NCBI GenBank assembly: GCA_019510405.1
Contig: JAEKKK010000258.1
Span: 1-33,909 of the forward strand
Source of the DNA: Gemmatimonadota bacterium
GTDB taxonomy: Bacteria; Gemmatimonadota; Gemmatimonadetes; Gemmatimonadales; Gemmatimonadaceae
Direction: 5' to 3'
DNA: 33,909 nt
The notes under the pieces were generated by a model. That model had not been told where the DNA came from. It searched no databases and worked only from the letters and a program-made list of their open reading frames with translations. Shown piece by piece: positions 935 to 29,282 of the stretch. How positions within the stretch are numbered: position 1 is the first letter of the stretch; each line of letters starts with the position of its first letter. The position numbers and the translations under genes were made by a program.

Positions 935-1561
935 TCAGCGGCGCGGCGCGCCGACGCGGGACGAGAGCACGCCACGCACGTCGGCCATCGTGCCACCAAC
1001 GGCGCGAAGCGCAACGAGTGCGTGATAGAGGAGATCGGCACACTCTTCGACGGCACGAGACTGGTCGCCGTCGGCGCATGCGGTGATCAGCTCTGCCGCC
1101 TCCTCGCCGACTTTCTTCAACCGCAGGTTGCGATCGTCGAGCAGGCGGCGCGTGTAGCTCGGCTTCTCCGTCGTGGGCTCGGGCGTAGACTCGGCGGCGC
1201 GCGCCTCGATCGTAGCGTCAAGCGCACCGAGCACGTCCGCCGAGAGCGCCGGCGTACCGAAGCACGACCGCGCACCGGTGTGACATGCAGGACCAGCCGA
1301 GCGCACGCGCGCGAGCACCGCGTCGCCGTCGCAATCGGAAAGCAGGGCGACGACCTGCTGCGTGTTCCCACTCGTCGCACCCTTATGCCAGAGGCCGCGC
1401 GTCCGGGATCGATAGTGCATCTCGCCCGTATCGAGCGTGCGTTGCAGCGCCTCGCGATCGGCGTGGGCCACCATGAGCACGGCGCCACTCTCCGCATCCT
1501 GCGCCACCACGGTGACGAGCCCCTCCCCCTTCGCGAAGTTCAACGCGTCCAGATCAAGCAT
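935..1561 (-). CDS. hisIE: Bifunctional phosphoribosyl-AMP cyclohydrolase / phosphoribosyl-ATP pyrophosphatase
   Basis: A fused HisI-HisE protein of 208 residues catalysing steps 2 and 3 of histidine synthesis: PR-ATP to PR-AMP, then ring opening to ProFAR. The N-terminal HisI domain shows [20 protein letters not shown] and the metal-binding stretch SDCDGDAVL...[12 protein letters not shown]. The C-terminal HisE domain shows the MazG-like helix motif [13 protein letters not shown] and [13 protein letters not shown]. The length equals the usual fused enzyme (about 200 residues). The start at 1561 lies one base after the hisN TGA, giving tight translational coupling; an in-frame ATG at 1594 would overlap hisN and is less likely. 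It is the last gene of the his operon. Confidence 0.93.
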
Positions 1562-1562
1562 G

Positions 1563-2399
1563 TCAGGGCCGGTTGGAGGAAGTGGACGCGGCATGGGCGA
1601 GTATCCCGCGGACTTCCGTGTCCAGCGCGCGGTTCGTCGCCACGACGCTTCCGCCGAACGCGGTGGCAACGCCATCCCAGTCGGTGAACGTGCCACCCGC
1701 CTCTTCGATGATCGGCTGCAATGCCGCGGCATCCCACGGCGACATCACGGGATCGCACATCACCTCGGCGCGCCCCGTGGCGACGAGCAGGTAACCGAAG
1801 CAATCGCCCCAGGTCCGGCTGACGGCAGCCGCGTCGGAGAGGGCCCGCCACCCCGCTCGCCGCTCGGGCCGCTCGCGGAAACGCTCGTCAGTAGTCAGCA
1901 CCGTCGCCTTGGCCAGCGCGTCGATCGTCGACACGTAGCAACGACTGCCGTTCCACCAGCACCCGGCACCGGGCGCTGCGGCGACCATCTCGTCCACGGC
2001 GGGGAAATACGCCGCACCAGCCAGCACGCGCGTACCTTCGCACAGCGCGACGAGCGATCCCCAGAGTGGGGTGCCCCGCACGAATGATTTCGTCCCGTCG
2101 ATGGGGTCGATGACCCATCGCCGCGGCGCGCCGGGTCGCTCCTCACCCAACTCCTCTCCGAGCACGCCGTCGTCCGGAAAGCGGCTGCGAACCCATGCAC
2201 GCGCCGCGGTCTCCGCCGCACGATCCGCCTCGGTCACCGGCGAACCGTCCGCCTTCGTCTCGACCGTGAGGCGTGAACGGTAATGTCGGAGCGCGACCGT
2301 ACCCGTCAGCCGAGCCAGCTCCGCCGCTGGTGCGATGCGATCATCCAGCACGAGCGCGGCGTCGGCTCGGTGGGTCGTGTTCGGACGCTGCACGCTCAT
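1563..2399 (-). CDS. hisN: Histidinol-phosphatase, inositol monophosphatase type
   Basis: A 278-residue member of the inositol monophosphatase (IMPase) superfamily. The Mg2+ sites are visible: GEELGEE, then [15 protein letters not shown] (the DPIDGT signature) and the C-terminal [15 protein letters not shown]. Family members act on several phosphate monoesters. Placement inside the his operon, together with a HisB that has only the dehydratase domain, indicates that it hydrolyses histidinol phosphate (HisN). The start at 2399 gives an ATGA overlap with the hisF stop; the open frame extends 42 codons further upstream, but only inside hisF. Confidence in the family is very high and in the substrate high by context. 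Confidence 0.9.
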
Positions 2400-3154
2400 G
2401 CGGCCCTCACAGGAATGTGCGCCGCGCGCATCGCGGCCTTTACGGCACTCACCGTCGTCACCTCGTCGTGCAGGATCCCCGCGAGCAACGCGGCGTCCGC
2501 ACCCGCATCGGCGAGCACTTCGCACACGTGCGAGGCAGTCCCTGCACCGCCGGACGCCACGACGGGCACGCGTACCGCCTCGACGACGGCCCGCGTCAAC
2601 GCGAGATCGTAACCTGTGCGCGCTCCGTCACGGTCGATGCTCGTGAGCAGCACCTCGCCCGCGCCGCGGCGCACGCAGTCGGCTGCCCACTCGACCGCGT
2701 CGAGCGACGTCGCCTCGCGTCCCCCCTTCACGTACACGCGCCACCGCTCCCCATCGCGCTTCGCGTCGATGCTCGCGACTACGCACTGCGATCCGAAACG
2801 CTCGGCCGCCTCGGTCAGGATCTCCGGCCGAACGACCGCCGCCGAATTGATGCTCACCTTGTCGGCGCCCGAGCGCAGCGCTCGCGCGACGTCGTCGACG
2901 GTCCGCACACCGCCGCCGATCGTGAGCGGCACGAAGAGACACTCCGCCGTGCGACGCGCGACATCGAGCAGCGTACTCCGCTCCTCGGCGCTCGCCGAGA
3001 TATCGAGGAACACCACCTCGTCCGCCCCCTCGCGCTCGTACCGGGACGCGAGCGCCACGGGATCGCCCACGTCGCGCAGCTGCACGAACTGCGTCCCCTT
3101 CACGACGCGTCCGCCCTTCACGTCCAGGCAAACGACCAGACGCCGCGTCAACAC
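2396..3154 (-). CDS. hisF: Imidazole glycerol phosphate synthase, cyclase subunit
   Basis: A 252-residue (beta/alpha)8 barrel that takes ammonia from HisH and converts PRFAR to imidazole glycerol phosphate and AICAR. The first strand carries CLDVKGGRVVKGTQF, with the catalytic Asp; the second catalytic Asp is in VVASIDAKRDGERW; phosphate-binding glycines lie in IGGGVRTVDD and VASGGAGTASH. Translation appears to start at a GTG (3154) directly after the hisB TAA, with no intergenic base. Length and motifs are those of a normal enzyme. Its partner hisH is encoded two genes upstream in the same operon. Confidence 0.95.
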   Translation of the reverse strand: MLTRRLVVCLDVKGGRVVKGTQFVQLRDVGDPVALASRYEREGADEVVFLDISASAEERSTLLDVARRTAECLFVPLTIGGGVRTVDDVARALRSGADKVSINSAAVVRPEILTEAAERFGSQCVVASIDAKRDGERWRVYVKGGREATSLDAVEWAADCVRRGAGEVLLTSIDRDGARTGYDLALTRAVVEAVRVPVVASGGAGTASHVCEVLADAGADAALLAGILHDEVTTVSAVKAAMRAAHIPVRAA

Positions 3155-3694
3155 TTATCGCTCCTCCACCCGCAGCGCGACGCTCCCCTTCGTGCTGAAG
3201 ACCGCGCCTGAATCGACGAATGCCTCCCGCACGGCGAGACCGAGCGCCTTGAACGCGGCTTCGACGATGTGATGGCGATCGGTTCCGCGAAGCACGCGGA
3301 GGTGCAGCGTGGCCTTCGCGTTGTCGCTGAGCGATCGCATGAAGTGGTCGTAGAGCGTGCTCGGAAGCGGCCGGTAGAACGGCCGCCCACCGAGATCGAG
3401 CGCGCAGTGCACGAGCGCCTCGTCCATCGGGATGCTCCGGTCCCCGTAGCGCGCTGCCGTCGCGGGGAGCAGCGCGGCAATGGCCGCGCCGAGGCAGATC
3501 GCGACGTCCTCGATCAGGTGATGCTGGAGATCGCCGGTGGCCTGGAGCGTCAGGTCCAGGCCACTGTACCTCGAGAACGCGACGAGCATGTGATCGAGGA
3601 ACGGCTGCCCCGTCGCCACGTTCGCGCGGCCGGAGCCGCGCGTCAGCTCACATCGAATGTTGGTCTCCGACGTTTCGCGGACGACGACGGTCAT
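3155..3694 (-). CDS. hisB: Imidazoleglycerol-phosphate dehydratase (monofunctional)
   Basis: A 179-residue dehydratase making imidazole-acetol phosphate. The two His-rich metal-binding repeats are present: FLDHML with LQHHLIEDVAICLG, and DRHHIVEAAFKALG; PMDEALVHCALDLGGRP is also typical. It is a little shorter than the usual 190 to 200 residues, with small gaps before the first HH motif and after GGRPF; these look like a lineage variant because the frame and motifs are intact. There is no phosphatase domain, which agrees with the separate hisN. The ATG at 3694 has a GAGAGAGAG ribosome site just upstream; the gap to hisA is 46 bases, the widest inside the operon. Confidence 0.92.
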   Translation of the reverse strand: MTVVVRETSETNIRCELTRGSGRANVATGQPFLDHMLVAFSRYSGLDLTLQATGDLQHHLIEDVAICLGAAIAALLPATAARYGDRSIPMDEALVHCALDLGGRPFYRPLPSTLYDHFMRSLSDNAKATLHLRVLRGTDRHHIVEAAFKALGLAVREAFVDSGAVFSTKGSVALRVEER

Positions 3695-3740
3695 CGCTCT
3701 CTCTCGTTCGAAAGGGTTCTGTGCCCCACGTGGTGAGGGC

Positions 3741-4454
3741 TCATTCGCCGAACTCACCGGCAACCACCACCGGATCCATTGCGCCCGTATACAACGCCAT
3801 CCCGATCACCGCGCCGGCGAGCCCTCGATGCTCGAGCGCGCGCAGGTCCTCGATCGACGCTACGCCGCCTGACGCAAAGACGGGAAACTGCGAGCTCTCC
3901 GCGACGTCCTCCATGAGGGGAAGGTCGGTACCCCGCAGCTGCCCTTCCTTGTGTACTGCGGTCACGAGCAGACCGCCGAGCGGGAGCCCGTTGAGCTCTT
4001 CCACGACGTCGAGAATGTCCACCGGGAGCGTGTGCGCCCAGCCTCGCGTCGTCACCCGCCGCTCTCGCACGTCACAGGCGACGACGATCTGTCCGGGATG
4101 CCGCTGCGCGAGCTCGGCGAGCCAATCGCGCTCCTCGATCGCTCGCGTGCCGACGATCACCGAGGCCGCGCCAGCGCTGAGCAGCTCCTCGACTCGTTCG
4201 TCGGAACGCACGCCGCCACCGACCTGCACCGGTACGTTCACATCGGAGAGGATGTCGCGGATGAGCGAGAGGTTGGATCCGCGCCCCGTTGCCGCGTCGA
4301 GGTCGACGAGGTGCAGCCGATGGAAGCCATAGTGCTCCCAGCTGCGCACCACGTCCAGCGGATTCCCAAGCCGCACGCGTTCTTCCGCGTACGAGCCGCC
4401 CACCAACTGCACGCACGCACCCTCGCGAAGGTCCACAGCCGGAATGGCGATCAT
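3741..4454 (-). CDS. hisA: ProFAR isomerase (1-(5-phosphoribosyl)-5-[(phosphoribosylamino)methylideneamino]imidazole-4-carboxamide isomerase)
   Basis: A 237-residue (beta/alpha)8 barrel homologous to HisF, catalysing the Amadori rearrangement of ProFAR to PRFAR. The N-terminus IPAVDLREGACVQLVGG carries the general base Asp; the opposite catalytic Asp is in VVACDVRERRV; phosphate sites are QVGGGVRSDE and FASGGVASIED. The ATG at 4454 overlaps the hisH TGA as ATGA. The open frame runs far upstream only because hisH is free of stops in that register; that extension has no HisA similarity. Confidence 0.95.
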   Translation of the reverse strand: MIAIPAVDLREGACVQLVGGSYAEERVRLGNPLDVVRSWEHYGFHRLHLVDLDAATGRGSNLSLIRDILSDVNVPVQVGGGVRSDERVEELLSAGAASVIVGTRAIEERDWLAELAQRHPGQIVVACDVRERRVTTRGWAHTLPVDILDVVEELNGLPLGGLLVTAVHKEGQLRGTDLPLMEDVAESSQFPVFASGGVASIEDLRALEHRGLAGAVIGMALYTGAMDPVVVAGEFGE

Positions 4455-5062
4455 CGTGGTCTCCGGCTCGTTCGAGCCTCGTCGAGGAATGCACGCAGCC
4501 AGCGCACGCCGGCCGTCGAGCTCTTCTCCGGGTGAAACTGAGCACCGACCGCCGCTCCCGCGCGCACTGCGGCGGGAAAGCGATCCGCCTCGTGCTCGCT
4601 CCAGGCGATCACGCCCGTCGGCTCGGTCGGCCGACAGACGAAGCTGTTCGCATAGTAGGCGATGGAAAGCGGTGCGGCGTCGAACAACGGATCCCGCTGC
4701 GCCTCGAGCGCATTCCATCCGATCTGCGGCACGCGCTGCGCCTCGAGCCGCGAAACGCGTCCCGCGACCACCCCGAGACCTGCGCCCTCCCCTTCGTCGC
4801 TTCCCTCGAAGAGCAGCTGCATGCCCAGGCAGATGCCGAGCGTCGGCAACCCGCCGACAATCGCCTCGCGCATCGCGTCCCGTCCTGGTGCCAACCGACC
4901 GGCCGCCGCCCCGAACGCTCCGACGCCTGGCAGCACGAGAGCATCGGTTTCGATCGCGCGGGTGGGGTCCTCCTCGATCCGAACCTCCACGCCACCTCCT
5001 TCGATCGCCTTCGCCAGCGAGTGCAGATTGCCCGCGCCGTAGTCGAAGATCGTCACGCGCAT
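4451..5062 (-). CDS. hisH: Imidazole glycerol phosphate synthase, glutamine amidotransferase subunit
   Basis: A 203-residue class I glutamine amidotransferase supplying ammonia to HisF. The triad is readable: nucleophile Cys in LGICLGMQLLFEGSDEG, and His and Glu in GAQFHPEKSS. The N-terminus IFDYGAGNLHSLAKA and the oxyanion-strand segment LVLPGVGAFGAAA are typical of HisH. The ATG at 5062 lies 10 bases inside the end of hisC, and its stop overlaps the hisA start. It should work as a HisH-HisF heterodimer. Confidence 0.95.
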   Translation of the reverse strand: MRVTIFDYGAGNLHSLAKAIEGGGVEVRIEEDPTRAIETDALVLPGVGAFGAAAGRLAPGRDAMREAIVGGLPTLGICLGMQLLFEGSDEGEGAGLGVVAGRVSRLEAQRVPQIGWNALEAQRDPLFDAAPLSIAYYANSFVCRPTEPTGVIAWSEHEADRFPAAVRAGAAVGAQFHPEKSSTAGVRWLRAFLDEARTSRRPR

Positions 5063-6156
5063 GCGAGTGCCTCCACGAATGCATCCAGCACGCGTTCCAT
5101 GGCGTCCCACGGACCGACCCCGATGCGCAACGCATTGCCGCCGGTTGCGGCGAGCGCGGGAATGTCCTGCGGCAGACCGGAGAGCGCGCGCACGAGCACC
5201 CCACCCCGGCACATGGCCTGGGCGATCACCTGCGCGCGTGCGACGGGGACGAACAGAAAGTTTCCCGCCGCCGGCGCGGGCTCGAAGCCGAGCCGGCGCA
5301 GCGCGGCCGCCAACCGTGCTCGATTCTCGACCGCCAGAGCGGCGTGAGCGGTGACCCACCCGATCCCGTCACCGCCCTCGCCGAGCGCAGCGATCGCAGC
5401 GGCCTCCGCGAGCGCGTTCACCTTGTACGGCCCGCGTGCGCGTATGATCGGCTCCACGACGTCGGTGCTGCCGACCCCATAGCCGACCCGAAGTCCGGCG
5501 AGCCCGAACGCCTTCGAGAACGTCCGGATCACGACGAGCCGCTCGACCTTCGTCACGAGGTCGACGAACGATTCCGGCGCGAACTCGGCATAGGCCTCGT
5601 CGATCACGACCAGACCGGCCGCGTGGTGCACCACGTACTCCACCGTCGCGCGCGACAGCGCGGTCGACGTCGGATTGTTCGGCGAACAGAGATACGTGAT
5701 CTTCGCACGTCGATCGACCAGCTGTTGCGGATCGACCTCGTAGTCGGGCGTCATCGGCACGGCCACGGGGACCAGGCCATTGAGCCGAGCGAAGGTCGGG
5801 ATCATCGCGAACGTCGGCGCCGCGAACACGATCTCATCTCCGGGCTCGCCGAACGCCCGCATCGTCGCGTCGAGCACGTCATCCGAGCCACACGCCGACA
5901 CGACGTCGATGCCCTGGCCGTCGGACAGTCCGAGGTAGCGGAGGACGGCATCGCGAAGCGGTGCGGCGTAGACCGAGGGATAACGGCTCGCGGACATGGC
6001 CGTCGTCGTCAGCGCGCGAAGCGCGGCCGGCGGAGCGCCCCACAGGTTCACGTTGTCGCTCACGTCGACGACGCAGGGCGTGATGTCCGGAGCATACCGG
6101 GGCAGCGCCACCACGTCACGGCGTGCCAGCGTCGTGATGCCACAGGTGGAGATCAT
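5053..6156 (-). CDS. hisC: Histidinol-phosphate aminotransferase
   Basis: A 367-residue fold-type I PLP enzyme that transaminates imidazole-acetol phosphate to histidinol phosphate. Visible motifs are YLCSPNNPTSTALS, the PLP-ring Asp/Tyr in VVIDEAYAEF, the Schiff-base lysine in RTFSKAFGLAGLRVGYG, and the C-terminal substrate Arg near GNALRIGVGPWD. The ATG at 6156 gives an ATGA overlap with the hisD stop, so it is preferred to the start eight codons upstream. Length is normal for HisC. Confidence 0.94.
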   Translation of the reverse strand: MISTCGITTLARRDVVALPRYAPDITPCVVDVSDNVNLWGAPPAALRALTTTAMSASRYPSVYAAPLRDAVLRYLGLSDGQGIDVVSACGSDDVLDATMRAFGEPGDEIVFAAPTFAMIPTFARLNGLVPVAVPMTPDYEVDPQQLVDRRAKITYLCSPNNPTSTALSRATVEYVVHHAAGLVVIDEAYAEFAPESFVDLVTKVERLVVIRTFSKAFGLAGLRVGYGVGSTDVVEPIIRARGPYKVNALAEAAAIAALGEGGDGIGWVTAHAALAVENRARLAAALRRLGFEPAPAAGNFLFVPVARAQVIAQAMCRGGVLVRALSGLPQDIPALAATGGNALRIGVGPWDAMERVLDAFVEALACA

Positions 6157-7487
6157 GCGACGGGCGCTCCCTCGCGCCACGCGCGCGCCGTCGAGGCGTG
6201 TCCGGGCAGCCCCTCGGCGTCGGCGAAGATGCCGACGTCGTTCGCGAGCCGTGCGGCGGCGTCGCGCGTCACCCGCTGGTACGTGGTCCAGCGCACGAAG
6301 TCGAGCGTCGAGAGCCCCGAGTACGAACGCGCGAGCCCGCCGGTGGGAAGCACGTGGTTGGCCCCGGTCATGTAATCCCCGAACGCGACGGACGCCGTCG
6401 GTCCGATGAACACCGTTCCCGCATTCCGAAGTGCCGCCAGGGCGTCGTCGAGCGACTCGACGATCAACAGCAGGTGCTCCGCGGCGTAGTCGTTGGCGAA
6501 CGCGATCGCATCCGCCCGCGATCCCGCGAAAAGCACGGCGCCTTGCCCCGCGAGTGCCGCACGGCAGATCTCTGCACGAGGATGGGCCGCGAGCCCTGCC
6601 TCGAGCGCCGCGAGGATGTCATCGACCGCCCGCGCACTCGTCGTCAATGCGACGACCGCCGCGAGAGGATCATGCTCGGCCTGCGCCAGCAGCTCGCGGG
6701 CGACCAGCGCAGCGTCGGCGGTCTCGTCGCAGAGGACGAGGAGCTCGCTGGGGCCGGCGGGCGAATCGATCGCCACGGCGCTGGAGACCTGCAGCTTCGC
6801 TGCCGCGACGTACGCATTGCCGGGCCCCACGATCCGATCGACCCGGGGCACGCTCGCGGTACCGTAGGCCATCGCCGCGACTGCCCCTGCGCCGCCAAGT
6901 GCAAAAACCCGGTCGGCGCCGGCGAGTGCAGCCGCAGCGAGAACGACACTCGACGGCATGCGCGTGTCGCGCGACGGTGGCGAGCAAAGCACGATCTCGC
7001 CGACGCCGGCCACGCGGGCCGGCACGATCCCCATCAGTACGCTGCTCGGATACGCCGCGCGCCCGCCAGGTGCATACACGCCGACACGCCCGAGGGGATC
7101 GGGACGACGTCCGACGATCACACCCGCCTCGCTCTCCGTCTCCTGGGTCACCGGAAGGAAGGCGCGATGCACCCGCTCGATGTTCTGAGCCGAACGGTCC
7201 AGTGCCTGACGCAGAGGGCGCGGCAGGTCGTCCAGCGCCGCGTACCATCGCGCTCGCGGCACCTCGAGCGTGTCCAGCGCGACGCCATCCAGCTCGGCGG
7301 CGAGTGCATGAAGGGCGTCGTCGCCCTCGCGCCGCACTCTTGCGATGATGCTCGAGGTACGGTCGCCAATCACCGCGTCGGTCCCTGCGGTGCGGTCGAA
7401 CAGTGCACGTCGATCCGCACCGGTCAGTGCGTCGCACGAGCCCGTCCATCGCACCGTCGAGTTGCCCGCTGCGCGCTTCGCGCTCAC
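6153..7487 (-). CDS. hisD: Histidinol dehydrogenase
   Basis: A 444-residue zinc- and NAD-dependent enzyme oxidising histidinol to histidine (last two steps). Signature stretches include GRVGVYAPGGRAAYPSSVLM, VDRIVGPGNAYVAAAK, DSPAGPSELLVL, the active-site Glu-His of DYAAEHLLL, and zinc-ligand regions QAEHDP and GANHVLPTGG. The start is a GTG at 7487 forming a GTGA overlap with the hisG stop. Length is normal, and no defect is visible. Confidence 0.95.
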   Translation of the reverse strand: MSAKRAAGNSTVRWTGSCDALTGADRRALFDRTAGTDAVIGDRTSSIIARVRREGDDALHALAAELDGVALDTLEVPRARWYAALDDLPRPLRQALDRSAQNIERVHRAFLPVTQETESEAGVIVGRRPDPLGRVGVYAPGGRAAYPSSVLMGIVPARVAGVGEIVLCSPPSRDTRMPSSVVLAAAALAGADRVFALGGAGAVAAMAYGTASVPRVDRIVGPGNAYVAAAKLQVSSAVAIDSPAGPSELLVLCDETADAALVARELLAQAEHDPLAAVVALTTSARAVDDILAALEAGLAAHPRAEICRAALAGQGAVLFAGSRADAIAFANDYAAEHLLLIVESLDDALAALRNAGTVFIGPTASVAFGDYMTGANHVLPTGGLARSYSGLSTLDFVRWTTYQRVTRDAAARLANDVGIFADAEGLPGHASTARAWREGAPVA

Positions 7488-8347
7488 GACATCAGCCTCT
7501 CGATACGGGTGACCAGAATGCCTTCGGCCCCGAGGGCCTTCAGGTCGGCGATGGTCCGATAGATGGTCGCGGCTGATACGACGGCGTGCACGGCGACGAA
7601 CTTGCCGCCGTTCATGATGTCGATGATCGTTGGCCCATTGAGACCCGGGATGACACGCTTCACTTCGTCGAGGCGGTCGCGCGGCACGTTCGCCATCACG
7701 TAGCGCTTGTCGCGCGCGGCGAGAACGCTGCGAAGTGCCGCCACCAGTTCGTCCAGGGCGCGCCCACGAGCGACGTCCTCCCGCGCGTCCGGCGCGGCGA
7801 TCAGGCGCGCGCTCGATTCCAGAACCGTCGCGATCTCCCGTAGCCCGTTCACCCGCAACGTGGACCCGGTCGAGACCAGGTCCACGATCACGTCGGCGAT
7901 CCCGATGTGCGGCGCGATCTCCGCGGCGCCCGATACGGGCACGATCTCCACCTGCCGCCCGACCGACGCAAAAAATTCCGCCGTGACCCGAGGGAATACC
8001 GTCGCCACGCGCGTGCCCGACCGCAGATCCTCGAGTGCCAAGAGGCCGCTCTCCTCAGTGGCAGCGACGGCCAGACGGCAGCGCCCGAAGGTGAGATCCG
8101 TCAATTCTCGGAGAGCTCGGCCAGACTCGCGAACCAGGTCGGCGCCGGTCACTCCGGCGTCCGCGGCGCCGTCCGCAACGAATTCGGGAATGTCCTGCGC
8201 CCGGACGAACAGCGCCTGGAACTCGCCGCCCAGCGACGCCGTGAGGGCGCGCGGGCCAGCGGCGCGGATCTCGAGTCCGGCGTCGGTGAACAGTTCGCGA
8301 GCTTCGTCCGCGAGACGTCCTTTGTTGGGGAGGGCGATTCGGAGCAT
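7484..8347 (-). CDS. hisG: ATP phosphoribosyltransferase, long form with regulatory domain
   Basis: The committed step of histidine synthesis, joining ATP and PRPP. At 287 residues this is the long form: two periplasmic-binding-protein-like catalytic lobes (start LRIALPNKGRLADEARELF; PRPP loop in IVDLVSTGSTLRVNGL) and a C-terminal ACT-like domain (from about residue 215) that senses histidine. A HisZ partner is therefore not needed. It is the first structural gene of the operon and lies about 45 bases beyond the attenuator terminator. No clear Shine-Dalgarno sequence precedes the ATG at 8347. Expression is probably set by attenuation and the enzyme by feedback inhibition. Confidence 0.95.
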   Translation of the reverse strand: MLRIALPNKGRLADEARELFTDAGLEIRAAGPRALTASLGGEFQALFVRAQDIPEFVADGAADAGVTGADLVRESGRALRELTDLTFGRCRLAVAATEESGLLALEDLRSGTRVATVFPRVTAEFFASVGRQVEIVPVSGAAEIAPHIGIADVIVDLVSTGSTLRVNGLREIATVLESSARLIAAPDAREDVARGRALDELVAALRSVLAARDKRYVMANVPRDRLDEVKRVIPGLNGPTIIDIMNGGKFVAVHAVVSAATIYRTIADLKALGAEGILVTRIERLMS

Positions 8348-8391: not shown

Positions 8392-8420
8392 AAAAAAAAG
8401 CCCGTCCTGATGGACGGGCT
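8392..8420 (-). terminator. his attenuator terminator
   Basis: Read on the minus strand, AGCCCGTCC (8420-8412), loop ATCA and GGACGGGCT (8407-8399) form a perfect 9-bp stem running into eight T residues (8399-8392). This is a textbook intrinsic terminator, yet it lies between the leader peptide and hisG in the direction of the operon. That position makes sense only as a conditional attenuator. Confidence 0.9.
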
Positions 8421-8514
8421 GCGAGCCGATCGGCGCCGCGGGAGGTGAGCTCTCGCCCTACCCGTGCATGCGCGTCTCGCCCCGGCCCGTCTGACCGTGG
8501 TGAGCATGCGCATG
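8413..8514 (-). promoter_or_regulatory. Alternative RNA pairings of the his attenuator
   Basis: Three pairing segments can be drawn by eye on the transcript. CATGCGC (8514-8508, inside the His codons) can pair over 7 bp with GCGCATG (8473-8467). GACGGGC (8491-8485) lies in that loop and can pair over 7 bp with GCCCGTC (8419-8413), the 5' arm of the terminator. A ribosome stalled at the His codons would break the first stem and free GACGGGC to act as antiterminator. The pairings are complementary as stated; relative stabilities were not computed. Confidence 0.65.
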
Positions 8515-8538
8515 ATGGTGGACGCCAGTGATCGACAT
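8458..8538 (-). CDS. hisL: Histidine leader peptide
   Basis: ATG at 8538 to TAG at 8460-8458 encodes 26 residues. Residues 6 to 15 read VHHHAHAHHG, so six of codons 7-14 are His; a seventh His is codon 25. His is normally about 2% of residues, so this density is not expected by chance in a frame with a start, a stop and a terminator just downstream. The peptide has no enzymatic role: the ribosome's passage over the His codons senses charged tRNA-His and decides whether the terminator at 8392-8420 forms. The start has only a weak upstream AGG and may be leaderless, because a -10-like TAGGTT ends 6 bases before the ATG. Confidence 0.9.
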   Translation of the reverse strand: MSITGVHHHAHAHHGQTGRGETRMHG

Positions 8539-8544
8539 GCCGGC

Positions 8545-8573
8545 AACCTAACAGCGACTCGCGGACGGGTCAA
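8545..8573 (-). promoter_or_regulatory. his operon promoter
   Basis: On the minus strand, TTGACC (8573-8568) and TAGGTT (8550-8545) are separated by 17 bases. Transcription would start about 7 bases after the -10, at or beside the A of the hisL ATG (8538). The same -35 and a TAnnnT -10 with 17-base spacing occur before the cold-shock gene at 14217. Confidence 0.65.
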
Positions 8574-8635: not shown

Positions 8636-8664
8636 TTGCGCTTACAAAACATTGTGAATAAATT
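8636..8664 (+). promoter_or_regulatory. Candidate promoter of cupredoxin gene
   Basis: TTGCGC (8636-8641) and TAAATT (8659-8664) have 17-base spacing, which puts the start near 8671 and a leader of about 58 bases. A weaker alternative -10 (CATAAC, 8692-8697) would place the start near 8703, with the CRP-type palindrome about 42 bases upstream, as at class II activated promoters. Sequence alone cannot choose between repression and activation. Confidence 0.4.
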
Positions 8665-8669
8665 CACAA
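8652..8669. promoter_or_regulatory. CRP-family operator (perfect TGTGA-N6-TCACA)
   Basis: TTGTGAATAAATTCACAA is an inverted repeat with 8-bp perfect arms and contains TGTGA-N6-TCACA, the consensus core for CRP-type regulators. It sits between the divergent his leader and cupredoxin genes in an unusually AT-rich patch. A CRP-family protein with the matching Arg-Glu recognition residues is encoded at 32192-32908. Confidence 0.75.
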
Positions 8670-8728
8670 AACGGCGCGGGTCCCGCGTCGCCATAACCAC
8701 GATCAGGTCCTACTGGAGGCCCTCAGAA

Positions 8729-9274
8729 ATGCGGTTCCACGGTATTGCGCTTCTCGCGAGCGCGACCATCCTCGGCGCCTGCGGCGGCGAGAAGACGCCC
8801 GCCGCCGACACCACCGCGACGGCCACGCCGGCGCCCGCTGCTACGACCACCCCGGCCGATACGGGAGCGGCTGCTGCTGCCGCAGCGCCCGCCGCCGCGG
8901 CGCCGGCTGCTGGCGCGGTTGCCGCTGCGCCGGCCACCGGCACGACGCATGAGGTCAAGATGATCGGTGACGCCACGGGCTATAAGTTCGAGCCCGCGAA
9001 CACCACCGTGAAGCAGGGTGATGCGGTCAAGTTCGTCATGGTCTCCGGCGGCCCGCACAACGTCACCTTCCAGAACGTCACCGACGCCGCGGCCAAGGCG
9101 CAGCTCGATGCGAACATGCCCGGCCAGAAGATGGGCGAGCTCGCCGGCCCGATGGTGATGCAGCCGAACGAAGCATACGTCGTTTCCTTCGCCAAGGTCC
9201 CGCCTGGCAAGTACGATTATATCTGCACGCCGCACGCGGCGATGAACATGAAGGGCTCGATCACGGTCCAGTAG
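8729..9274 (+). CDS. Plastocyanin-like (type 1 copper) lipoprotein
   Basis: A 181-residue secreted blue-copper protein. The N-terminus MRFHGIALLASATILGAC is a lipoprotein signal with lipobox LGAC (Cys18). It is followed by an Ala/Pro/Thr-rich linker to about residue 75 and a cupredoxin domain from about 77 to 181. Type 1 copper ligands are visible: His110 in GGPHNVTF and the C-terminal cluster Cys166-x2-His169-x4-Met174. It probably shuttles electrons at the outer face of the membrane. The ATG at 8729 is chosen for GGAGG at 8715-8719; codons upstream in the same frame are not part of a signal peptide. A CRP-type box lies about 60 bases upstream. Confidence 0.88.
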   Translation: MRFHGIALLASATILGACGGEKTPAADTTATATPAPAATTTPADTGAAAAAAAPAAAAPAAGAVAAAPATGTTHEVKMIGDATGYKFEPANTTVKQGDAVKFVMVSGGPHNVTFQNVTDAAAKAQLDANMPGQKMGELAGPMVMQPNEAYVVSFAKVPPGKYDYICTPHAAMNMKGSITVQ

Positions 9275-20854: not shown

Positions 20855-22306
20855 TCAGGGAATGGTGTTTGTGGATCGCGGCGTTGGTGGCGGAGCGAGC
20901 GCCGCCTGAGCGGCCTCGAGTTGTGCGCGTACGGCAGTCGGACCGGTGCCGCCCTCTACTTCACGATGCGTGACTGAGCGTTCGGCGCTCAGTGCCTCGT
21001 ACACATCCTCCGAGAAACGAGGATGAGCTGCGGTAAAGGACGAGAACGGAAGCGTCTGCATCTCCTGCCCGGTCGACTCGCTCTCGCGGACGAGCCGTCC
21101 GACCGCTCCATGTGCCTCGCGGAAGGTGGCACCCTTGCGCACGAGATAGTCCGCAAGATCGGTCGCCATCATGCTGCTCGAGAGCGCCGCGCGCATGCGC
21201 TCCGGCCGGAACGTGCACTCGGCCAATGCCCCCGACACGGCCGGAAGCACGAGCAGCAAGGTGTCCGTTGCGTCGAAGAGCACGCGCTTGTCGTCCTGCA
21301 GGTCCTTGTTGTAGCTCGACGGAAGCCCTTTGAGGGTTGCGAGCAGCGTCGTCAGGTTGCCCAGCATTCGTGCGGCGGAACCGCGCGCCAGCTCCAGCGC
21401 GTCCGGGTTCCGCTTCTGCGGCATCATGCTCGATCCTGAGGTGTAGCCCTCGCCAAACTGCACGAATCCGAACTCGCTCGAGCCGTAGATGATGAGGTCT
21501 TCGGCCAGGCGCGACAGATGGGTACCGATCATCGTCGCGGCGAACAGGACTTCGGCAATGAAGTCGCGATCGCTCACCGCGTCGATGGAGTTCGGTGAGA
21601 GCGCGTCGAAGCCCAACGTGCCCTGAATGAGGATGCGCGAGATCGGATACGCGCACCCCGCTACCGCTCCAGAGCCAAGCGGCAAGACAGCCGCCGAGCG
21701 ATGGGCCGCGCGGAGTCGCGCGCGGTCGCGCTCGAGGGGCCAGAAGTGCGAGAGCAGCCAGTGCGCCGCGGAGACGGGAATAGCGCGCTGCAGATGGGTA
21801 TACGACGGCATCAGCGCCGCCTCGAGGCCCGAGGCCTGCTCGAGCATCGTGCGCTGCAGTCCGCGCAGGGCGCTGTCGAGCTGCTGACAGACGTCGATCG
21901 TCCAGAGCCGCGCAGCGGTCGAGACCTGGTCGTTGCGGCTACGACCCGTGTGCAGCTTCGAGGCGACGTCACCGATCTCCTCGTGCAGCAGACGATCGAT
22001 CAACGTGTGCACATCCTCATCCGACGCCTGCGGCTGCTCACCACCCTGCAGCCGCACCGCCACGGTTTCGAGGCCCGTTTCGATCGCCTTGCTCTCCTCC
22101 AGCGTGAGCACGCCTGCGCCCCAGAGGGCAACAGCCCACGCCTGGGACAGCCGAATGTCGTAGGGCCAGAGACGGAAATCGACGCCAATGGAGTTGTTGA
22201 GCGCGTCGAACTCCGGCGTCGGGCCCGCGCCGAACCGCCCGCCCCACAGCTTGTGCGTGCGGGCTTGGGTCTGAGGCGCCGGCGGGGCCCCCAAATCGAT
22301 GTTCAT
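20855..22306 (-). CDS. argH: Argininosuccinate lyase
   Basis: 483 residues, fumarase/aspartase superfamily, splitting argininosuccinate into arginine and fumarate. Visible motifs: KLWGGRF at the N-terminus, SKLHTGRSRNDQVST, PSYTHLQRAIPVSAAHWL (catalytic His), and the signature loop SGSSMMPQKRNPDALEL with the catalytic Ser. It is slightly longer than the usual 460 because of N- and C-terminal tails rich in Pro/Ala. It follows argG by 25 bases, so the two are co-transcribed from the ArgR-controlled promoter upstream of argG. Confidence 0.95.
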   Translation of the reverse strand: MNIDLGAPPAPQTQARTHKLWGGRFGAGPTPEFDALNNSIGVDFRLWPYDIRLSQAWAVALWGAGVLTLEESKAIETGLETVAVRLQGGEQPQASDEDVHTLIDRLLHEEIGDVASKLHTGRSRNDQVSTAARLWTIDVCQQLDSALRGLQRTMLEQASGLEAALMPSYTHLQRAIPVSAAHWLLSHFWPLERDRARLRAAHRSAAVLPLGSGAVAGCAYPISRILIQGTLGFDALSPNSIDAVSDRDFIAEVLFAATMIGTHLSRLAEDLIIYGSSEFGFVQFGEGYTSGSSMMPQKRNPDALELARGSAARMLGNLTTLLATLKGLPSSYNKDLQDDKRVLFDATDTLLLVLPAVSGALAECTFRPERMRAALSSSMMATDLADYLVRKGATFREAHGAVGRLVRESESTGQEMQTLPFSSFTAAHPRFSEDVYEALSAERSVTHREVEGGTGPTAVRAQLEAAQAALAPPPTPRSTNTIP

Positions 22307-27724: not shown

Positions 27725-29282
27725 ATGCCCCAGCGCCGGTTCCTGCGAGCCACTCCCTTCCTCGCGTGCGCGATCGCCGGAGCGCTCTTTCGCAGTGCGG
27801 CGGCAGCGCCAGTTCCTCCGCGCGCCGCTCCTCGACCGCAGCTCGTGGTCTTCATCACGGTCGATCAGATGCGCCCGGACTACTTCGATCGATGGGCGCG
27901 ACAGCTCACCGGAGGACTCGGACGCCTCTCCCGGCAAGGCGCCTTCTTCACGAATGCCTTCCAGGATCACGCCATCACGGAAACGGCGCCGGGCCATTCG
28001 GTGACGATGGCCGGACGTTTTCCGAGATCGACGGGAATCGTGCGCAACGCCGCCGGCGTGGAAGATCCACAGGCACCTCTCCTCACGTCGCGCGATCCAG
28101 GCGCCTCGCCGTTCCGGTTCCGCGGCTCCGTGCTGATCGACTGGCTGCGGATCAAGGATCCGCGCTCACGCGCGCTGTCCATCTCGCGCAAGGATCGTGG
28201 CGCGATCCTTCCACTCGGGCGCGCGAAGCAGAACGTGTTCTGGTACGCAACCTCGAACGGACAGTTCACGACGAGCCGCTACTACGCCGACACGCTCCCC
28301 GACTGGATCCGCCGGGTGAACGCTCGGCGGGTCCCCCAGCGGCTTGCGGGGCAAGCCTGGAACCTCCTGCTCCCCGCGCGCGAGTACGCCGAGCCGGACA
28401 GCGTGGCGCAGGAGTCGGGCGGCAGCGACTACACCTTTCCCCACGTGCTGCCGACTGACACGGCACGCGCGGCAGGTGCGTTCCCGGGGACGCCGATGAT
28501 GGACCAGCTCACGCTCGACGCCGCGCTCGAGGGACTGCAGGCGCTCAACCTCGGGCGCGGGCCACAGACCGACGTCCTCGCCATCTCACTGTCGGCGACC
28601 GATTACGTCGGCCATCGCTATGGCCCCGACTCACGGGAGCAGCACGACAACATCCTCCGGCTGGATCGTGCGCTGGGCGCGTTCATCGATTCGCTGTACA
28701 AGGTGCGCGACTCGTCGACGATCGTCTTCGCGCTCACTGCGGACCACGGTGTGACGCCATTCCCCGAGCTGACGGCGCAGCGCGCGCACCGGACGCCGCC
28801 GCCACGCTATGACGTCACGAAGCCATTCGCGACACTGCGGACGACGCTCGCGCGCTCGGGCGTCGACAGCTCGGCGGTCGAGTTCGATGGTGCGCTCGTG
28901 CTCGTGGATCGCGAGGCTTTCGCGCTCGCGCACGTCGATCCAGAGCCGGTGCTCGCGCGCTTCGCCGACGCGTTGCGCCGCCAGCCTGGGATCGCGCGCG
29001 CGGACCGGGTGCGCGACCTCGCGCGACGCGACACGGTGAATGACGCCGTGAGCCGACGCTGGCTCCACATGCTCCCACCCGATCTACCGATCGCCCTACG
29101 ACAACGATGCGCACGTCCCCGTGATCTTCTACGGGGCAGGCGTTCGTCCAGGACGCTATCCCGAGCGGGCGCTCGTCGCCGACGCCGCACCGACGCTCGC
29201 GCGCATCCTTGGCGTGACGCCGATCGAGCGATTGGACGGACACGTGCTCGAGCGCGCCCTGAGCAGCAGCGCGAACCACTGA
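27725..29282 (+). pseudogene. PafA-like alkaline phosphatase/phosphodiesterase, broken near the 3' end
   Basis: An alkaline-phosphatase superfamily enzyme with a signal peptide (FLACAIAGALFRSAAAAP). Metal-site and nucleophile motifs are present: FITVDQMRPDYFDRW, the Thr nucleophile region AITETAPGHSVTMAGRFP, LSATDYVGHRYGPDS and LTADHGVTPFPE. After RRWLHMLPPDLPIA (about 29090-29097) the frame breaks, and the expected C-terminus continues in another frame as SPYDNDAHVPVIFYGAGVRPGRY to DGHVLERAL with a stop at 29282. About 20 residues, including the HG of the usual HGSPY motif with a metal-ligand His, are missing (length 2 mod 3). Read without correction, the frame runs on to 29374 as nonsense overlapping the next gene. 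Start supported by AGGA at 27713. Confidence 0.82.

Follow-up and report, generated by a model that had tools for sequence, protein, structure and literature searches.

A putative leaderless His-rich attenuator upstream of the his operon in Gemmatimonadota

The his operon and its upstream region

The window, i.e., the whole stretch of 33,909 nucleotides that was analysed, is an entire contig (C210) of a 3.74 Mb assembly, 77% complete, from a soil bacterium of the Gemmatimonadota. It carries a his operon headed by hisG, which encodes the long form of ATP phosphoribosyltransferase (NCBIfam matches TIGR00070, E=2.7e-62, and TIGR03455, E=4.7e-28). The gene order hisG-hisD-hisC was unbroken in every locus long enough to show it. 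The nearest HisG loci in named records are from Gemmatimonadetes or Gemmatimonadaceae MAGs; the host is accordingly a Gemmatimonadaceae MAG, and the Gemmatimonadota-like host supposed in the initial annotation is correct. On the other side of the upstream region a divergent gene (8636-9274, plus strand) looks, judged by its sequence, like that of a plastocyanin/azurin-type lipoprotein. The features of the his locus are as follows:

8568..8573, minus strand: -35 box, TTGACC, read in the sequence
8545..8550, minus strand: -10 box, TAGGTT (TAnnnT), with a 17-nt spacer to the -35 box and 6 nt between it and the leader ATG
8458..8538, minus strand: leader peptide ORF, MSITGVHHHAHAHHGQTGRGETRMHG, 26 aa, ATG at 8538, conserved in homologues
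8497..8520, minus strand: sensor block, codons 7-14 of the leader in the sequence, HHHAHAHH (6 His of 8)
8467..8514, minus strand: pre-emptor hairpin, with an outer stem of 7 bp (8514-8508/8473-8467) and an inner one of 5 bp (8497-8493/8487-8483), sequestering part of the antiterminator strand
8485..8491, minus strand: antiterminator 5' strand, GACGGGC, within the leader ORF (codons Gln-Thr-Gly-Arg), pairing with 8419-8413
8412..8420, minus strand: terminator 5' arm, AGCCCGTCC, of which GCCCGTC (8419-8413) doubles as the antiterminator 3' strand
8392..8420, minus strand: predicted intrinsic terminator, 9-bp stem, ATCA loop and 8 T
7484..8347, minus strand: hisG, first gene of the his operon, start codon at 8347
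935..7487, minus strand: hisD, hisC, hisA, hisB, hisF, hisN, and hisIE, downstream of hisG and codirectional with it, NCBIfam matches

For comparison HisG loci were sampled from 59 genomes of the family and from named genomes. The resulting 94 distinct upstream regions span Gemmatimonadota, Myxococcaceae (Myxococcus, Corallococcus, Pyxidicoccus, Archangium, and Hyalangium) and Eisenbacteria MAGs. A leader ORF was found directly after the promoter in 90 of the 94, and nearly all relatives examined have both a His-rich frame and a terminator upstream of hisG, so that the absence from relatives named in the initial annotation as a refuting outcome is clearly not what is seen. These counts are lower bounds, the automated finders having missed some promoters (L006, L068, and L077) and some terminators (L011, L024, L085, and L106).

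Leader peptide, promoter and RNA structures

A leader-peptide attenuator requires a leader rich in codons that match the operon, and the 26-codon frame described in the initial annotation, with six His codons within eight, was recovered exactly and its His richness is conserved. The cluster is the sole one with at least five His in eight codons in the six frames of the window, and clusters with at least six in eight occurred in none of 30 Markov-shuffled windows; it is not due to chance. In homologues the His codons are CAC (285) and CAT (293) in about equal numbers, so that the encoded amino acid, and not the base, is what stays constant. A terminator before a gene can simply end an upstream transcript, and it could be argued that the terminator here is partial and constitutive and that the His-rich frame arose by chance and senses nothing. 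Apart from the uniqueness of the cluster in the window and its absence from the shuffled windows, this reading would have to explain at least four His per ten codons in all 90 called leaders (at least five in 86 of them), from three phyla. The comparative data make it very unlikely, and we give it almost no probability.

The promoter of the initial annotation, TTGACC-N17-TAGGTT, is present base for base, and TTGAC is found at the same spacing in nearly all homologues. The leader start lies 5–11 nt from the -10 box in 89 of the 90 homologues with a called leader, and 2 nt from it in the remaining one. In the alignment of homologues the leader has an information content of 0.47 bits per position, which drops to 0.04 on the upstream side of the -35 box, i.e., the likeness between loci is not a general similarity of the region. 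As the ATG is located 5–11 nt after the -10 box (6 nt in the window) the his leader mRNA is probably leaderless, with its 5' end at ~8538. It is conceivable that attenuation operates without leaderless initiation, with transcription beginning further upstream and ribosomes loading via an upstream site. The promoters match by consensus only, and a few homologues have no promoter called by the scan. However, the near-constant spacing between -10 box and start codon and the lack of conservation upstream of the -35 box speak against this, as does the rarity of the promoter-ATG combination: TTGAC-N18/19-TAnnnT-N5-10-ATG occurs just 7 times in the genome of the window vs. once for a reversed control (a reversed-pattern control was applied both to this promoter pattern and to the scaffold pattern), and the other six matches lead straight into open frames. 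A longer leader mRNA is therefore considered unlikely. The open frames following these six matches include mutL, mscS-like, and arsR/marR-like genes, and the pattern may mark leaderless genes (mutL, mscS-like, arsR-, and marR-like regulators) in this genome.

The intrinsic terminator sits between the leader ORF and the first structural gene (AGCCCGTCC-ATCA-GGACGGGCT at 8420-8399 with the T-run at 8399-8392; -17.8 kcal/mol). Its 9-bp stem and eight U residues were as annotated base for base, and only 44 nt separate the T-run from the start of hisG, which had been described as following directly. The antiterminator, formed between GACGGGC (8491-8485) and GCCCGTC (8419-8413) over 7 bp, and the terminator are mutually exclusive since the terminator 5' arm is common to both. 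The antiterminator strand is hidden by the pre-emptor, a hairpin that also takes in sensor codons. Its outer stem is a 7-bp pairing of CATGCGC (8514-8508) with GCGCATG (8473-8467), and its inner stem in the window is a 5-bp pairing of CGGUC with GGCCG. The 7-bp antiterminator and pre-emptor pairings were thus both found where the initial annotation had placed them. The annotation had also put forward RNA folding as a check, and the outcome agrees with it: the 194-nt leader RNA is 2.95 sd more stable than dinucleotide shuffles, and simulated ribosome stalling favours the antiterminator (see below).

In an alignment of 63 homologous leaders RNAalifold, given no hypothesis, returned the pre-emptor and the terminator, the former with the His codons paired to the end of the leader ORF and with an inner CGGCCC/GGGUCG stem. 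Both show covariation, with pair counts that exceed all shuffles on the main measures. For the pre-emptor 85% of cells are paired, with double changes at 11 of the 17 pairs and 43 double-change cells (0/500 shuffles); for the terminator 99.6% of cells are paired, with 21 double-change cells (0/500 shuffles). The antiterminator is paired in 88% of cells, vs. at most 48% when slid, and its 3 double-change cells in the 63 homologues are no better than shuffles. Little variation is expected here because the strand is common to three structures, although this does not amount to positive evidence for the pairing. The strand is also coding sequence for xTGRG in the leader peptide (the motif [TSAPV]GR[GD] is found in 52 of 90 leaders), and its location immediately after the last sensor codon is kept in homologues.

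The effect of a stalled ribosome was modelled by equilibrium folding of transcripts ending at the terminator 5' arm, with the RNA masked up to the ribosome. For the window RNA the expected number of antiterminator pairs increased from 0.02 in the free RNA to 6.98 with the ribosome on His codon 1, 2, or 3. Among 84 homologues the mean rose from 3.2 (free) to about 6.9 (stalled); 50 gained more than 2 bp on stalling and none fell by more than 2 bp. The other 34 stayed within 2 bp in the equilibrium model because their unstalled RNA already forms antiterminator pairs. When the codons preceding the antiterminator strand were shuffled, the free RNA formed 6.1 instead of 3.2 bp of the antiterminator (p=3e-10), which indicates that the real order of the sensor codons holds the antiterminator back, while shuffling the codons after the strand gave no rise in unstalled antiterminator pairing (2.0 vs. 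3.2 bp). The antiterminator of the window RNA also forms (6.6 bp) when the ribosome is placed on the stop codon, and the model consequently needs ribosome release or kinetics that are invisible to an equilibrium fold.

Distribution of the element and related leaders

A covariance model built from the leader alignment (R1; its E-values are rough) matched in 124 of 298 Gemmatimonadota genomes and in 71 of the 195 genomes scanned under the phylum of M. xanthus. Strong matches adjoin hisG wherever both positions are known. Among family genomes present in both the HisG and the R1 listings, 37 have HisG together with the element, G031 alone has HisG but no element, and ten have neither; the his element tracks HisG within the family. 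Ten near-complete Gemmatimonadaceae have no HisG match (G006, G011, G014, G020, G023, G025, G035, G037, G039, and G049), and these are possibly histidine auxotrophs or carriers of a different HisG. Some individual loci deserve mention. Two divergent HisG loci (L151 in G187 and L153 in G005) have a His-rich leader upstream and a different terminator sequence, suggesting that the terminator was gained separately or replaced. One genome carries two near-identical his attenuators, before hisC and before hisG (L142 and L143; G127 contig C210). A record labelled Comamonas sp. KCTC 72670 (L057) contains HisG and an attenuator of the myxobacterial type, and one labelled as a Ca. Kuenenia MAG (L092) contains HisG and an attenuator of the Gemmatimonas type; both records are probably mislabelled or contaminated.

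Among the weaker R1 matches were leaders built on the scaffold of the his element but with Tyr-rich sensor blocks, located before the genes for DAHP synthase (aroF) and phenylalanine 4-monooxygenase. These Gemmatimonadaceae leaders resemble the his element in their TTGAC promoter, adjacent ATG, run of sensor codons, xTGR antiterminator codons and GGCCCGTG...CACGGGCC terminator, but their sensor codons are Tyr/Phe and their targets are genes of aromatic amino acids. Tyr-rich leaders on this scaffold are located before phenylalanine 4-monooxygenase, which makes tyrosine from phenylalanine, at L141, L144, and L275 (gene identity confirmed for L275). At L145, L147, L148, L149, and L150, from several genera of the family, the leader is Tyr-rich or closely akin to such leaders and is followed by a DAHP synthase gene (gene identity confirmed for L149). 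Three other weak matches (L152, L277, and L279) looked on inspection like chance or terminator-only matches. Outside the family a Thr-rich frame followed by a GC-rich hairpin was found before aspartokinase/homoserine dehydrogenase in Myxococcus xanthus (L276) and before thrS in an Archangium MAG (L278), both being candidate Thr attenuators. No Trp-codon leader of this type was present in the trpE upstream regions of 26 genomes.

Besides the his element, the genome of the window itself appears to have two further leaderless attenuator-like leaders, before aroF and leuA. The first (L205; G000 contig C270, start near 21130, minus strand) is a Tyr/Phe-rich leader, VTQSTRSYYFSSFFYYGFPYAGRDWRRTRE, which together with a terminator directly precedes aroF; it has the his scaffold and is predicted to be leaderless. 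The second (L218; G000 contig C80, start near 27918, plus strand), likewise putatively leaderless, is a Leu/Ile-rich leader, MQHQSVLLLSSALGRIIIIGRGISCMGGRTE, with a terminator GGCCCCTCCC...GAGGGGCC-T5 and competing hairpins, some 490 nt ahead of the leuA match. It is kept in three congeners, and leuA regions outside the genus had no comparable leader, bar one weak case. The survey was a targeted search, and as the genome is 77% complete the absence of more attenuators from it means little.

These relatives also bear on the question whether the His-rich micro-peptide is itself the product, e.g., for metal binding, with the terminator merely ending its transcript and no regulation of hisG. A block such as HHHAHAHH could serve as a binding site for Ni, Zn or Cu. 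Leader peptides can moreover act in trans, as does peTrpL (PMC7298713). On the other hand the element precedes hisG and tracks its presence, scaffold relatives have Tyr, Phe, or Leu/Ile blocks before matching pathways, and the covarying pre-emptor and terminator are accompanied by a GACGGGC that has been kept complementary to the terminator; we consider a free-standing peptide quite improbable. It is tempting to speculate that Gemmatimonadota use modular leaderless leader-peptide attenuators as a main control of amino acid synthesis, with one scaffold and an exchanged sensor block (His before hisG/hisC, Tyr/Phe before aroF and phenylalanine 4-monooxygenase) and an analogous Leu/Ile element before leuA. 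This generalization is tentative, and we regard it as slightly less probable than its opposite. If true, it would include Tyr-sensing leader peptides, for which a literature search returned no example.

Proposed mechanism and comparison with known attenuators

The conserved His-rich leader and terminator of the relatives, the covariation of pre-emptor and terminator and the predicted thermodynamic switch support the attenuation proposed in the initial annotation. Very probably the element controls the his operon by ribosome-mediated transcription attenuation via a leader peptide, and its leader mRNA is leaderless. Transcription would start at or beside the A of the leader ATG, and a ribosome would load on the 5' AUG and translate the His-rich leader. 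When charged His-tRNA is ample the ribosome would clear the His codons, and their segment could then pair with the end of the leader ORF, including CGGUC with GGCCG, so that GACGGGC is hidden in the pre-emptor. The 9-bp terminator would consequently form, and transcription would stop before hisG. Under a shortage of His-tRNA the ribosome would be expected to stall on codons 7–9 and cover the 5' strand of the pre-emptor. The free GACGGGC could then pair with the terminator 5' arm once this is made, and the polymerase would read into hisG.

Alternatively the operon might be controlled by a leader that binds a protein or a tRNA (a T-box or riboswitch), since his genes of other phyla are under the control of histidine T-boxes (PMC9413887). 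However, no such family was found in the window at gathering score, and none for the leader up to E=10, and we regard this explanation as exceedingly improbable. More generally, the Rfam search of the window returned no known leader family for the element at gathering score, nor among the matches to E=10.

There may be several reasons why the element is of wider interest. First, it extends amino acid leader-peptide attenuation to a phylum for which no report was found. Second, it supplies an alignable RNA family that is absent from Rfam. Third, it ties attenuation to leaderless translation, as predicted here; if stalling ribosomes are indeed loaded directly on a 5' AUG, this would provide a natural test of the speed and reliability with which leaderless initiation is coupled to transcription. 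Finally, since leaders with different sensor codons are built on a common scaffold, the way in which new specificities evolve can be put to the test.

The his attenuator of E. coli and Salmonella (Rfam His_leader) likewise has a leader peptide with His codons, a terminator, an antiterminator and a pre-emptor before hisG. The E. coli his leader has its own A–F hairpin scheme. The Gemmatimonadota element has no sequence or covariance match to His_leader and, unlike the enteric attenuator, consists of three short hairpins, uses the coding sequence right after the sensor codons as antiterminator strand and has its start 6 nt from the -10 box.

Until 2010 leader-peptide systems were known in Proteobacteria and Actinobacteria only (PMC2965389), and no conserved element was found upstream of the his operons of Actinobacteria in 2005 (PMC1262725). 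His attenuators are known in Proteobacteria and have been proposed for three Firmicutes lineages, the B. cereus group, Peptostreptococcaceae and Erysipelotrichales (PMC9413887), and leaders of hisS and hisZ in Firmicutes were also proposed to be His attenuators (PMC2965389). As described, these resemble the present case in that non-proteobacterial his genes follow a His-rich ORF, an antiterminator and a terminator, but they belong to a different phylum. No report of a his attenuator in Gemmatimonadota was found in the open-access literature, and it is possible that Myxococcus elements were noticed earlier in subscription papers. The suggestion in the initial annotation that this could be an independent or little-described case accordingly holds for the phylum as far as reports are concerned, but the element is not isolated, being part of a phylum-wide RNA family shared with Myxococcaceae and Eisenbacteria MAGs, and non-proteobacterial his attenuators had already been proposed in Firmicutes.

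Leaderless leader peptides have been described as well, i.e., trpL of Sinorhizobium meliloti (PMC7298713) and leuL, trpL, and ilvL of Streptomyces lividans (PMC8079986). They have in common with the his element, by prediction, that the leader peptide is made from an mRNA beginning at the start codon, and they differ from it in that the amino acids are other than His. Both his attenuators outside Proteobacteria and leaderless leader ORFs were therefore already known in principle, and the Gemmatimonadota element is a phylum-wide addition to them, unusual in that a single scaffold is reused with different sensor codons.
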